This document shows, piece by piece, positions 11,777-15,983 of a stretch of 64,000 nucleotides of DNA. The stretch spans positions 1,240,001-1,304,000 of the forward strand of contig NZ_LT907980.1 in the NCBI RefSeq assembly GCF_900215155.1. The letters are read 5' to 3'. A program made the position numbers and the translations under genes. The first letter of the stretch is position 1. Every line of letters starts with the position of its first letter. The stretch comes from Marinobacter sp. LV10R510-11A (GTDB lineage: Bacteria > Pseudomonadota > Gammaproteobacteria > Pseudomonadales > Oleiphilaceae). The notes under the pieces are model-generated. The model ran no database searches. It had not been told where the DNA came from and saw only the letters and a list, made by a program, of their open reading frames with translations.

Positions 11777-12847
11777 CTACCCCACACCTGGTAACGCTTG
11801 CCAATCCGTCGTGTATGCCGGCGAAAGATGCGTCCGCCGCATGGCATAAACCTCAGGCCCGGCCTGTCGGGCCATATAGAGGGTTGCTCTGGATTTCCGG
11901 TTGATCTCGTCCATCACAGCCATCAGCCTCTGGGATTTCTCAGCACTGGGTTTGCCGGCATCCGCTGTTTCAAACAAGTCGTCCTGCAAGCCGGTTTCAT
12001 CCATCAGTTCACTGAGCATCACGCCGGCCTTGGCGTAGTCGTAACCCTCACGATACATGGATCGGAGCAGATTCAACGCCTGTTGCACTAAAACGCGGGA
12101 ATCCTGAGTGGCGTTTATCAGGCGGATAGAGGCACTTCTTGAGTATTGGGAGGCCGATGTTTTAAAAGGATTGGTACGGACAAACACCATCAGCTCCCCG
12201 GCGTATTGCTGACCGCCCCTGAGTTTTTCTGTCGCTCTGCTGACATAGTGCGCCACCGCTTCTTCCAGATCTGCCAGGGCCTGAATCGGTTGGCCGAACG
12301 ATCGAGAGCACATGATCTGCTTTTTCGGCGGCGGTGCGTCCTCCCACGGCAGACAGTGAATGCCGTTGAGCTCCCGGGCGGTTCGTTCCAGTACAACCGA
12401 GAAACGGTTCCTGAGTGTGGCCAGGTCGGTATCCGCCAATTGTAACGCAGTGACAATACCCATCGTGTGGAGTTTGGCGGTGAGCTTGCGCCCGACACCC
12501 CAGACCTCTGCTACCGGCACGCGAGCCATCAGTCGCCGTTGCCGGAGCGGGTCGGTGAGGTCCACGACCCCGCCCGTGGCCCGGTATTTTTTCGCGCCAT
12601 AGTTCGCCAGTTTTGACAGTGTTCGGGTCGGGGCTATGCCGAAGCGACGGATTTCGTCTTTGATATGGTGAACTGGCACACCCATTTTGATCCCAAGCGC
12701 TTTCGCTTCTTTCGAACGGGCCACCACACAGCCATCGTTATTTGAGAGAACCACAACCGGTGTGTCCCGCAGATCCGGCCGGAAGAGCTTCTCGCAAGAG
12801 GCGTAAAAGTTATTGCAATCAACGAGCGCAAAGACCGGTTGCGTCAT
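11777..12847 (-). CDS. umuC: UmuC-like Y-family polymerase lacking its catalytic SIDE segment
   Basis: 356 aa, against about 420 for UmuC. The N-terminus (VDCNNFYASCEKLFRPDL, SNNDGCVVARS) holds the first catalytic Asp. At RRFGI the sequence jumps directly to APTRTLSKLANYGAKK. About 70 residues are missing, including the SIDE motif with the Asp-Glu pair that coordinates the catalytic metals. The frame is kept and the rest (helix-hairpin-helix, little finger, C-terminus) reads normally. Such a protein should not polymerise DNA. It could still bind DNA, RecA or the beta clamp, or simply be decaying. It overlaps the CLCA_X gene by 4 nt (ATGA). The order of loss of its SOS promoter and of this segment is unknown. 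Confidence 0.88.
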   Translation of the reverse strand: MTQPVFALVDCNNFYASCEKLFRPDLRDTPVVVLSNNDGCVVARSKEAKALGIKMGVPVHHIKDEIRRFGIAPTRTLSKLANYGAKKYRATGGVVDLTDPLRQRRLMARVPVAEVWGVGRKLTAKLHTMGIVTALQLADTDLATLRNRFSVVLERTARELNGIHCLPWEDAPPPKKQIMCSRSFGQPIQALADLEEAVAHYVSRATEKLRGGQQYAGELMVFVRTNPFKTSASQYSRSASIRLINATQDSRVLVQQALNLLRSMYREGYDYAKAGVMLSELMDETGLQDDLFETADAGKPSAEKSQRLMAVMDEINRKSRATLYMARQAGPEVYAMRRTHLSPAYTTDWQALPGVG

Positions 12848-13593
12848 CCGGCTTTGGTCTGTTCCCGATACAGTGCCGCGCCCAGGGCCTCGAAGTAGGT
12901 CTGAAAGGTATCGTTAATTCGCTGTCGCTGGACGCCCGCCGGGTACAGCCCCGCCTGGGCCTCGTCGGAATACACCGTGCCCCGCACCAGAAAGCTGTTA
13001 CGGGGCTGGCTGTCTTCGACGAAAGCTTCAAACGCCCGGGCACAAAGCTCTTCCGGTTTGGCGTAATAGAGAAGTTTCAGTCGTTGATCGGCCTTCTGTG
13101 AGGCAAGAAACAGCGGACTGGGTGACGCACCATCTTCGGTAAGCAAGATAGCCTGAAAGCAGTTGCTCAGCCGTTCATTAAGCGGATGCTCTTTCTGGTT
13201 CGCGCTGTTCAGCCAGCCACTGGAGGCAAAACCATGCCTATCCAGATTCCGGAACGCCTTGTTTCCCATGTAGTGGTCGAAGGCGTGGAACCATTCATGG
13301 GCGAGACTCCCTGCTCCGGCGTTTTTGGCTAACGCCAACTGCCGAGTCGCCGGGATATAATGTGCGGCCACCCCTAGCCGCCCACCAATTCCGTACTGCA
13401 GGCCCAGCGAGCCTCGCAGGGAAACAAGTGCTTCCGGCCCCTGAAGAATGGTCATCAGATTGATCAGCGCCCGATAGAACCGACCAGCCGCTCTGTCCCG
13501 CTCTTCAGGGGTTACCCAACGCCCAACTTCGATGTTACGAAAATCGAATCGGCGCCTCACTGTGATAAAGGACACCGAAGCTTGTGCCGTCAT
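12844..13593 (-). CDS. CLCA_X-family protein with HEWFH metalloprotease-like motif
   Basis: 249 aa from the ATG at 13593 (AAGGGG 7 nt upstream). It resembles the CLCA_X family (LPD1-type domain) found beside umuC in Marinobacter and relatives. It contains SLAHEWFHAFDHYMG, a perfect HExxH zinc motif, and an ELCARAFEAFVED segment that could supply a third ligand. There is no signal peptide, so it should be cytoplasmic. It replaces umuD as the gene upstream of umuC. The start lies 70 bp from a former LexA box now split by an IS, so SOS control is probably lost. A proteolytic role (for example on LexA-like or polymerase partners) is speculative. Confidence 0.75.
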   Translation of the reverse strand: MTAQASVSFITVRRRFDFRNIEVGRWVTPEERDRAAGRFYRALINLMTILQGPEALVSLRGSLGLQYGIGGRLGVAAHYIPATRQLALAKNAGAGSLAHEWFHAFDHYMGNKAFRNLDRHGFASSGWLNSANQKEHPLNERLSNCFQAILLTEDGASPSPLFLASQKADQRLKLLYYAKPEELCARAFEAFVEDSQPRNSFLVRGTVYSDEAQAGLYPAGVQRQRINDTFQTYFEALGAALYREQTKAG

Positions 13594-13674
13594 GACTACC
13601 CCTTTCATTTCAGTGACTGAATCAGATTTAACATCAGCGAAATTCGCAGCTTACGCCAATTACTGTTTTTATGT

Positions 13675-14708
13675 GGCGCTGTTGTGCTTACCTGTTGGCA
13701 GGCCACTCCAAACTGGGAATCGCCCCCCGAACCCAAACAATATCTTGAAACTCCTCCCTTTCGTCCATAAAGCGGAACCACGCCAGGTAATTGTCCACGC
13801 GGGCCGTTCCGACACCGTGGAAGCGCTTAAGCCAACCCTTCCAGCGTTGGGTAAAATTGTTCAGGGTCTGGATGTGGTAAACACCCTCAACAACCCGGCT
13901 GTTATCCTTCGCAATCAATCGCTTATGCTCAAGATGGTCAAACGTCTTCACCATTTCTACATAGGAAAGGTTGCCATCTGTGCACAAGACGGAGTTCTCG
14001 CGGATCACTGGGGCCAAGGCTGCGATAATTTCCTCCTTAGTGTCGTGCTCTAGAACATGGTGGGTAATGTGTCCGGAGCGATCCAGCGCCAATGCGATGG
14101 GCACCTGAGTCACCTTACCGCCCCCACGTTTACGGGCTGGCCGAGGCATCGTCTTTTTTCCCTTGAAGGACTCCGGCAGGAATGTCTCGTCGGCCTCGAT
14201 GATGCCGGACAACGACGTAGCCTTATGATCTCTGGGACTGCTTAGAAAGGCATGACGCCAGCGAAAGGCCGTGCGTAGGCTGACACCGGTCACCTTGGCC
14301 GCTTTGCGTAGGGATAGGCCATAGCGCATCGTTTCCACATACTCTAGCCAGAGCTCTTCTTTACGCATGCGGTACAGCGGGCTACCCACCAGCGCGTTGA
14401 AGGTCTTTGCGCAATGTTTACAGCGGTAGCGCTGGCGCTCATTCCCGGATGATCCCCAGCGAATAAACATCTTGGACTGACAATAAGGGCACTGGGTAAC
14501 CGCCTCTTCACTGGCCGTCAGCGTCTCGTAAACAGCATCCAGTTTGACGCGTTTTTCAATATGATGCCGTAGCTTTTTCAGCTGTGGGGTGGTGAAGTCA
14601 GGAACGCGGCGTAGAAGGTCGTTGAAATCATCGTGCTGCACGGTAGCCTCCAAATACATTCAGGTATGGAGTAAGTGTAGACCACCAACAGGTAAGCACA
14701 ACAGCGCC
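13675..14708 (-). mobile_element. IS1595-family insertion sequence, complete
   Basis: 1034 bp. Perfect 24-bp terminal inverted repeats at 13675-13698 and 14685-14708 (outer bases GGCGCTGTTGTGC). Perfect 8-bp target duplication TTTTATGT at 13667-13674 and 14709-14716, the length usual for IS1595. One intact transposase gene. The flawless ends and duplication point to a recent insertion. Confidence 0.96.
13688..14659 (-). CDS. IS1595-family transposase
   Basis: 323 aa. N-terminal zinc ribbon (CPYCQSKM ... RYRCKHCAKTF), a helix-turn-helix (LSLRKAAKVTGVSLRTAFRWRHAF) and an ISXO2-like DDE domain with ADET, CTDGN and the family segment HIQTLNNFTQRWKGW ... RVDNYLAWFRF. Full length and uninterrupted, so probably active. 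Confidence 0.94.
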   Translation of the reverse strand: MYLEATVQHDDFNDLLRRVPDFTTPQLKKLRHHIEKRVKLDAVYETLTASEEAVTQCPYCQSKMFIRWGSSGNERQRYRCKHCAKTFNALVGSPLYRMRKEELWLEYVETMRYGLSLRKAAKVTGVSLRTAFRWRHAFLSSPRDHKATSLSGIIEADETFLPESFKGKKTMPRPARKRGGGKVTQVPIALALDRSGHITHHVLEHDTKEEIIAALAPVIRENSVLCTDGNLSYVEMVKTFDHLEHKRLIAKDNSRVVEGVYHIQTLNNFTQRWKGWLKRFHGVGTARVDNYLAWFRFMDEREEFQDIVWVRGAIPSLEWPANR

Positions 14709-14912
14709 TTTTATGTACAGTATACTGAAGACCAACGCTTGGAGAGTCAATACGAGCAGTGTGAGTTATCAAACTCACATATAAATGTACTAACGAATGC
14801 CAGTCCTTATGGGCCCTTATGGCCAGTGGGGGCAGATGCACCGCACAGGCCTTGTATTTTGTATACTGTCCCCGGTTTTGCGCTTTGGCTTCCCGGGTTG
14901 ACGAACTAACCT

Positions 14913-15983
14913 ATGGACATTGATGGAACAGGGGTAGCAGATTTGAAAATTCGATTAACTGAATTCAGCCACGGTGCGGGCTGCGGCTGTAAGATTGCAC
15001 CGGATGTTTTAGAGCGAATCTTGCAAACCAAGGTTCCACAGTTTTCAGATCCCCGGCTGCTGGTGGGAAATGAAAGCCGAGATGATGCGGCCGTCGTCGA
15101 TATTGGTAACGGGATAGGCATTATCAGCACAACAGACTTTTTTATGCCTGTTGTTGATGACCCGTATGACTTTGGGCGAATTGCTGCCGCCAACGCCATC
15201 AGCGATGTTTATGCCATGGGCGGTAAGCCGCTGATGGCAATTGCAATTCTAGGATGGCCCGTGAATGCTCTGGCTCCGGAGATTGCATCCAAAGTGATAG
15301 ATGGCGGCCGAATGATATGCGGCCAGGCAGGCATTACGCTGGCTGGTGGTCACAGTATTGACGCACCGGAGCCAATCTTTGGGCTTGCTGTTACCGGTCA
15401 GGTTGCCACTGATCGGATTATGCGTAATGACCGTGCCCGTGAAGGTGACCTGCTTTATCTCACTAAGCCGCTCGGCGTCGGCATTCTCACCAGCGCATCG
15501 AAGAAAGGTCTACTGACAGACGCTGACCTGGCTTTGGCCGTGGAGAACATGACAACGCTCAATAAGCCAGGGTTGGTATTTGCAGAAATAGATGGCGTGC
15601 ACGCAATGACAGACGTTACCGGCTTTGGGTTAGCTGGGCATCTTCTTGAAGTTTGTCGCGGTAGCGGGTTGTCTGCCAAAGTGAATTTGCGTGCGCTGCC
15701 GGTAATGCCGAACCTGTCCCCTTATATTGAGGCTGGGTGCATCCCCGGAGGCACTTATCGTAATGCAACGGCCTTTGGTTCTTGTGTTCACAATATGACG
15801 GAGAGTGGTTCTCTTATCATGTGTGACCCTCAAACAAGTGGTGGCTTGCTAGTGGCTGTGGCTCCTTCTGCAAGGGTAGAATTCGAGCAAGCCGCGAAAA
15901 GCCAGGGAATTACGGCCAGCCCGTTTGGGGAAATGGTGGCGCAGTCTGGTGGTGCAAGCAGCAGCCTTCTTTATGTGGAGTGA
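14913..15983 (+). CDS. selD: Selenide, water dikinase
   Basis: 356 aa. Makes selenophosphate from selenide and ATP for selenocysteine and selenouridine synthesis. The N-terminal catalytic loop reads GAGCGCK, so the usual Sec/Cys position is Cys, and the glycine-rich loop and ATP-binding residues DDAAV and TDFFMP are present, as are the AIR-synthase-like N and C domains (ADANAIS-type [28 protein letters not shown]). The ATG at 14913 has no good ribosome-binding site; a TTG at 14943 preceded by AGGGG is a plausible alternative start. The usual partner mnmH (selU) or selA/selB is not adjacent, so those genes must lie elsewhere if the pathway works. Confidence 0.93.

Follow-up and report, generated by a model that had tools for sequence, protein, structure and literature searches.

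A convergent-looking preference for LexA operators among IS1595-family insertion sequences, best explained by direct sequence recognition

Introduction

Tn7 is a well-known case of an element that enters a specific host site beside a conserved gene, attTn7 at glmS, and it uses a dedicated target protein (TnsD-type) and a neutral site. Within the IS1595 family, ISMsa1 and ISCsp2 have the same transposase domain as the insertion sequence (IS) described here, along with terminal inverted repeats and 8-bp target duplications. Sequence-specific insertion into a palindromic intergenic site is described for ISs that target repetitive extragenic palindromes (REP), including ISPsy8, ISPa11, ISPpu9/10 and others. 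In the accessible part of PMC1525189 the REP-targeting ISs that are named belong to the IS3, IS110, IS4, IS256 and IS5 families, not to IS1595, and evidence is cited for IS1397 and ISKpn1 that the transposases themselves set target specificity. Here we analyse a window of 64,000 nucleotides from Marinobacter sp. LV10R510-11A (contig NZ_LT907980.1, positions 1,240,001 to 1,304,000), in which an IS1595-family element lies within a LexA-like box upstream of a CLCA_X-umuC operon, and relate this event to insertions of other IS1595 elements.

Results

Read letter by letter, the box CTGT-TTTTATGT-ACAG is interrupted by a 1,034-bp IS1595-family element (13663-14720), in the following arrangement:

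13663-13666, no strand: CTGT half-site of the split LexA box, CLCA_X side, read from the sequence
13667-13674, no strand: first copy of the 8-bp target duplication, TTTTATGT, read from the sequence
13675-14708, minus strand: IS1595-family insertion sequence, 1,034 bp, with 24-bp perfect inverted repeats (13675-13698 and 14685-14708)
13688-14659, minus strand: IS1595-family transposase gene, 323 aa from the first ATG
14709-14716, no strand: second copy of the 8-bp target duplication, TTTTATGT, read from the sequence
14717-14720, no strand: ACAG half-site of the split LexA box, selD side, read from the sequence
14913-15983, plus strand: selD, the divergent neighbour (NF002098, E 5.7e-159)

The initial annotation had placed an IS1595 insertion exactly in the core of a LexA box, with the N8 as its 8-bp duplication, and this is borne out base by base. 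Joining the flanks rebuilds the empty site, which on the CLCA_X strand reads TACTGT-ACATAAAA-ACAGTA. Today the half-sites are 1,050 bp apart and the operator is no longer complete; indeed, no complete CTGT-N8-ACAG remains in 13300-15000, where three matches to 7 of the 8 half-site bases persist. Such near-matches occur at chance level across the whole window (23 observed vs 20.2 expected). The split box itself exceeds chance expectation, a fraction of 3.6e-4 of the window's positions matching 7 or 8 of 8 half-site bases at N8 spacing.

The element itself combines the hallmarks of the family, namely a DDE transposase, terminal inverted repeats (agreeing at 24 of 24 bases) and an 8-bp target duplication. 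Its transposase matches the IS1595 model NF033547 (E 1.9e-46, 158.7 bits against a cut-off of 75) as well as PF12762, and judged by eye a GTG at codon 7, after GGAGG, may be the true start. By database annotation the nearest named elements are ISMsa1 and ISCsp2. The same genome holds five window-type copies that are 98.6-100% identical over their full length; the perfect ends and the 98.6-99.7% identity of the sister copies fit the earlier description of the insertion as recent. A search with the window IS DNA gave no match in plasmids, no relative was found in viral contigs, and a megablast search of E. coli genomes with the ISCsp2-like IS DNA from locus L243 found no relative.

Was the interrupted site a LexA operator? 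The source genome, a complete chromosome of 4,436,489 bp, encodes LexA (TIGR00498, E 7.2e-74), and the rebuilt TACTGT-N8-ACAGTA lies at a promoter, as expected of a LexA-regulated promoter before insertion. The pattern with at most one mismatch occurs at 10 places in this genome, hardly more than the 8 of its reversed control, so that matching the string is not in itself proof of an operator. We compared 29 close CLCA_X homologues (the homologous loci without the window's own). A box-like site is kept directly upstream (~120 bp) of CLCA_X in 20 of them, the remaining nine having umuD directly upstream instead; none of the CLCA_X loci examined showed the uninterrupted site next to selD, where the window has it. 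In 16 of 18 aligned promoters, drawn from the 20 boxed loci, TTGAC precedes the box by ~24 bp. Because close homologues without the IS keep the box directly upstream, we judge the window box to be real: the close group has a conserved type of promoter, with which the joined window site agrees. Among 30 more distant CLCA_X loci (L012-L041, 57-62% identical) no good box was found directly upstream (best score 0.73 of 1), so that the SOS promoter characterises the close group only.

The window insertion belongs to a wider target preference that the initial annotation had missed. IS ends were located by inverted repeats and 8-bp duplications, with the motif playing no part, and three clades (window-type, ISMsa1-like and ISCsp2-like) were pooled and set against other IS1595 members found in the same way. 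Among insertions with exact duplications, 22 of 24 in the three clades match 7-8 of 8 half-site bases, and 16 of 24 match all 8. By clade, the 7-8 of 8 matches amount to 6/8 for the window-type, 10/10 for the ISMsa1-like and 6/6 for the ISCsp2-like elements. The other IS1595 insertions gave none in 32, the best reaching 5 of 8 (Fisher 1.3e-13). Two of the counted loci, L115 and L205, share an operator (flanks 94-96% identical, ISs 82%); merging them as one event leaves 21/23 (Fisher 3.0e-13). The exceptions are L093 together with L095, at GCGA-GAAAATAG-CCCA (core 2), and L102 (core 5).

Several loci stand outside the 24 and 32. Five have CTGT and ACAG on the two sides and no exact duplication (L101, L117, L139, L207, L247), and others have one flank only, either CTGT (L116, L125, L245, L246, L252) or CTGG (L096/L100, L192). 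Two more count against the preference: L110, with a transposase identical to that of ISMsa1 in L205 and perfect ends, shows neither box nor duplication, and L104 has one half-site only. Duplicates were merged (L004 and L005 into L002; L099 and L114 into L094; L111 and L112 into L123; and L188, L189, L195, L228, L229, L122 and L130 with their originals). Controls with no clean duplication or with an implausible length were dropped (L109, L143, L144, L156, L178, L190, L191, L196, L200, L202, L204, L213, L234-L242 and others without ends). At L206 the IS lies upstream of the integron integrase gene intI; no clear ends were found for it and a CTGT close by has the wrong spacing, and this locus was not counted. 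Separately, another IS1595 group, with ends CCTGATTA (L106, L142, L167, L177 and others), may have its own target rule; by eye it tends towards TCA-N8-TGA, with weak symmetry.

Pooled over 16 events of the window-type and ISMsa1-like clades, the target reads TACTGT-(AT-rich)-ACAGTA, and the T and G of CTGT are invariant (2.0 bits each). Sites at SOS genes carry on average 3.78 of 4 flanking TA bases and 7.00 of 8 A/T in the core. Sites beside non-SOS genes carry 2.92 and 5.69, respectively, against 0.52 and 3.70 for random 7-of-8 sites of the window. The match thus extends into flanks and core also beside non-SOS genes, which we count in favour of an operator preference.

SOS-type genes have an insertion immediately upstream in eleven events. 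The gene is CLCA_X in three species (the window; L139; L127/L226) and umuD at L009, L131, L115, L103 and L205, the last annotated umuD-umuC. Further insertions lie upstream of lexA, followed by imuA (L229), upstream of a gene for an SOS response-associated peptidase, without an exact duplication (L247), and upstream of a PA0069-family radical SAM gene (L126). PA0069 is one that we take to belong to the Pseudomonas LexA regulon; a literature search for it in that regulon found no paper. At the related CLCA_X loci L224 and L226, ISs of two different clades occupy the same operator. The transposase gene points away from the SOS gene in 9 of the 11 events and towards it in two (the window and L226), a bias that is not significant (p 0.065). 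For thirteen of the 22 matches no adjacent gene is recognised here as SOS; these other events adjoin an Rpn-type nuclease gene, tnpB, a repeated element that we call X, or unknown genes. In one genome (G112), two ISMsa1-like copies (L126 and L113) are separated by ~1.5 kb, one occupying the box upstream of the PA0069-family gene and the other apparently within that gene.

The Marinobacter genome alone illustrates the preference. All five window-type copies sit in CTGT-N8-(A/C)CAG; three of them (L002, L004, L005) have long identical flanks, corresponding to element X, and were counted as one event, and L003 is inserted in a diverged relative of X. Similarly, four ISMsa1-like ISs all lie in CTGT-N8-ACAG. 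Their transposases are 41-44% identical to the window's and 74-100% to that of the reference L009, which is itself in this genome and adjoins a umuD-umuC pair. Thus all nine complete ISs of these two types (9/9) lie in the N8 of such a palindrome. Element X (L002, L004, L005, L006) encodes an IS1-like zinc-ribbon protein, and immediately upstream lies a palindrome of 38-45 bp that includes TACTGT-N8-ACAGTA; a search of the genome allowing up to 3 mismatches found this palindrome nowhere uninterrupted.

In a tree of 43 transposases the box-targeting sequences form separate window-type, ISMsa1-like and ISCsp2-like groups, interspersed with relatives that do not target the box. The tree requires four label changes, at least three of them on well-supported branches. 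Parallel gains, or one gain with several losses, may account for this pattern. For the ISCsp2-like group, whose transposase is ~25% identical to the window's, parallel gain is the simpler of the two. A single common clade of box-targeting elements was rejected (p-AU 2.8e-40, under the model).

The genes and promoter that the insertion separates are as follows:

11777-12847, minus strand: umuC-like gene, 356 aa, whose SIDE motif is lost through an in-frame deletion of 72 codons, from sequence comparison
12844-13608, minus strand: CLCA_X family gene, 254 aa (NF041907, E 1.4e-102; LPD1 domain)
14722-14750, minus strand: likely original CLCA_X promoter, TTGACT (14745-14750), 17-bp spacer and CAGTAT (14722-14727); the TTGAC is conserved and the -10 was assigned by eye

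The initial annotation expected that neither side would keep both half-sites and that the operon would escape LexA. The first part stands, the operator being split with no intact second box nearby, and from the split operator we infer that LexA control of the window operon was probably lost. The old promoter, whose candidate -10 is weak (3/6 matches), is now separated from CLCA_X by the IS, lying on its selD side, and reads into the transposase gene, which has the same orientation. The outward IS promoter once suggested as a source of constitutive expression was not supported: a scan of 13450-15000 returned no sigma-70-like site at threshold. It also returned no terminator-like site at threshold, and because neither kind of site appears in this interval, read-through from the old promoter via the IS into CLCA_X-umuC is possible.

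The UmuC deletion is of exactly 72 residues, including SIDEAF, which are present in all nine UmuC proteins compared (9/9), and its flanks are otherwise well conserved; the protein scores below the NF002955 cut-off (400.2 vs 431) and lacks the catalytic SIDE motif. With this motif missing, the regulatory question concerns mainly CLCA_X. The genome has a second CLCA_X operon (L219, 1188500-1193600) with a LexA-like box upstream and a shortened umuD, in which a stop falls within the family match; no umuC was found at L219 among the Y-family matches. Both CLCA_X operons of the genome therefore look partly decayed at the sequence level, and the operon may have had little remaining use when the IS inserted. 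By eye, the CLCA_X protein carries a zinc-protease-like HEWFH motif, and in at least six relatives (L063, L065, L067, L069, L077, L081) its gene lies between umuD and umuC. A metalloprotease-like partner of polymerase V would, to our knowledge, be new.

Discussion

The position of the insertion, its duplication, the recurrence of such events, their restriction to certain clades and the neighbouring genes are all read directly from sequence. Together they suggest, with a probability that we put at roughly 0.8, that three groups of IS1595 elements prefer the LexA-operator sequence TACTGT-N8(AT-rich)-ACAGTA, the N8 becoming the duplication, and that the transposase reads the half-sites directly. 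Direct sequence recognition appears to be the best explanation of this convergent-looking preference. In the most likely mechanism, the transposase (zinc ribbon, helix-turn-helix and DDE domain) would read the two CTGT half-sites of the target and the cut would place the N8 of the operator as the 8-bp target duplication; LexA itself need not be present. Most good matches in a gammaproteobacterial genome are SOS operators, so the elements would keep landing in the promoters of SOS genes. In the window, the separated half-sites should no longer allow a LexA dimer to bind, and the old promoter stays joined to the IS on the selD side, directed at the transposase gene with CLCA_X-umuC behind it.

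The host protein might instead mark the target, the transposase or the target complex binding LexA on its operator, comparable to the role of TnsD-type proteins in Tn7. Targets that resemble whole operators, including TA flanks and AT-rich core, and the 11 events at SOS-type genes would fit such guidance; we nevertheless consider it unlikely, since poor operators are hit as well (CTGG-ACGAGAAG-ACAG in an Enterobacter plasmid, L243, and CTGG-ATGCCCAT-ACAG, L113) and LexA bound to a box should cover the cleavage points. Considerably less probable is a general taste for palindromes, in which any symmetric AT-rich 8-bp core with symmetric flanks would serve and LexA boxes would be hit as common palindromes. 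Box-clade targets are indeed symmetric at 4.96 of 6 flanking pairs, compared with 2.13 for control ISs and 1.53 for random sites, and a slight symmetry is seen in other IS1595 members too, but mere symmetry would not make the T and G of CTGT invariant in 16 matching events. That random insertions survived only in intergenic operators, the window being a lucky case, is hardly credible even though insertions outside genes are better tolerated, for 22 of 24 matches against a background of 3.6e-4 per position has a binomial probability of about 5e-74 and the 32 insertions of related ISs, which passed through the same filter, include no match.

Beyond direct recognition by the transposase, a bolder proposal is that the clades independently evolved their landing on LexA operators and that insertion is SOS-gated. 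LexA would shield the site in undamaged cells and DNA damage would uncover it, so that the elements would rewire active damage promoters (even that of lexA) and sometimes place the transposase behind an SOS promoter. We regard this as tentative, and somewhat doubtful in its entirety. More generally, a mobile element that inherently favours the operator of a global stress repressor would be well placed to rewire the SOS regulon, with lexA and the operons of mutagenic polymerases within its reach. Such an element also makes it testable whether insertion can be coupled to DNA damage through competition between repressor and transposase for one sequence. Should the preference have more than one origin, as the tree suggests, sister transposases with and without it should reveal the residues that read the target.

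Our literature search, which covered mainly openly available papers and took in passages of PMC1525189 and PMC12561309, found no report of a LexA-operator preference for IS1595, ISMsa1 or ISCsp2. In L205 it is ISMsa1 itself that occupies a umuDC operator, whereas the other IS1595 members tested lack the preference (0/32). The REP-targeting ISs resemble the elements described here in their sequence-specific insertion into a palindromic intergenic site, but their targets are repeats without a known regulator site, whereas the elements studied here enter an operator bound by a global repressor. Likewise, the window-type IS shares with Tn7 a defined host target next to a conserved gene; unlike Tn7, however, the window-type IS has one transposase gene, and the function of its target site is destroyed.
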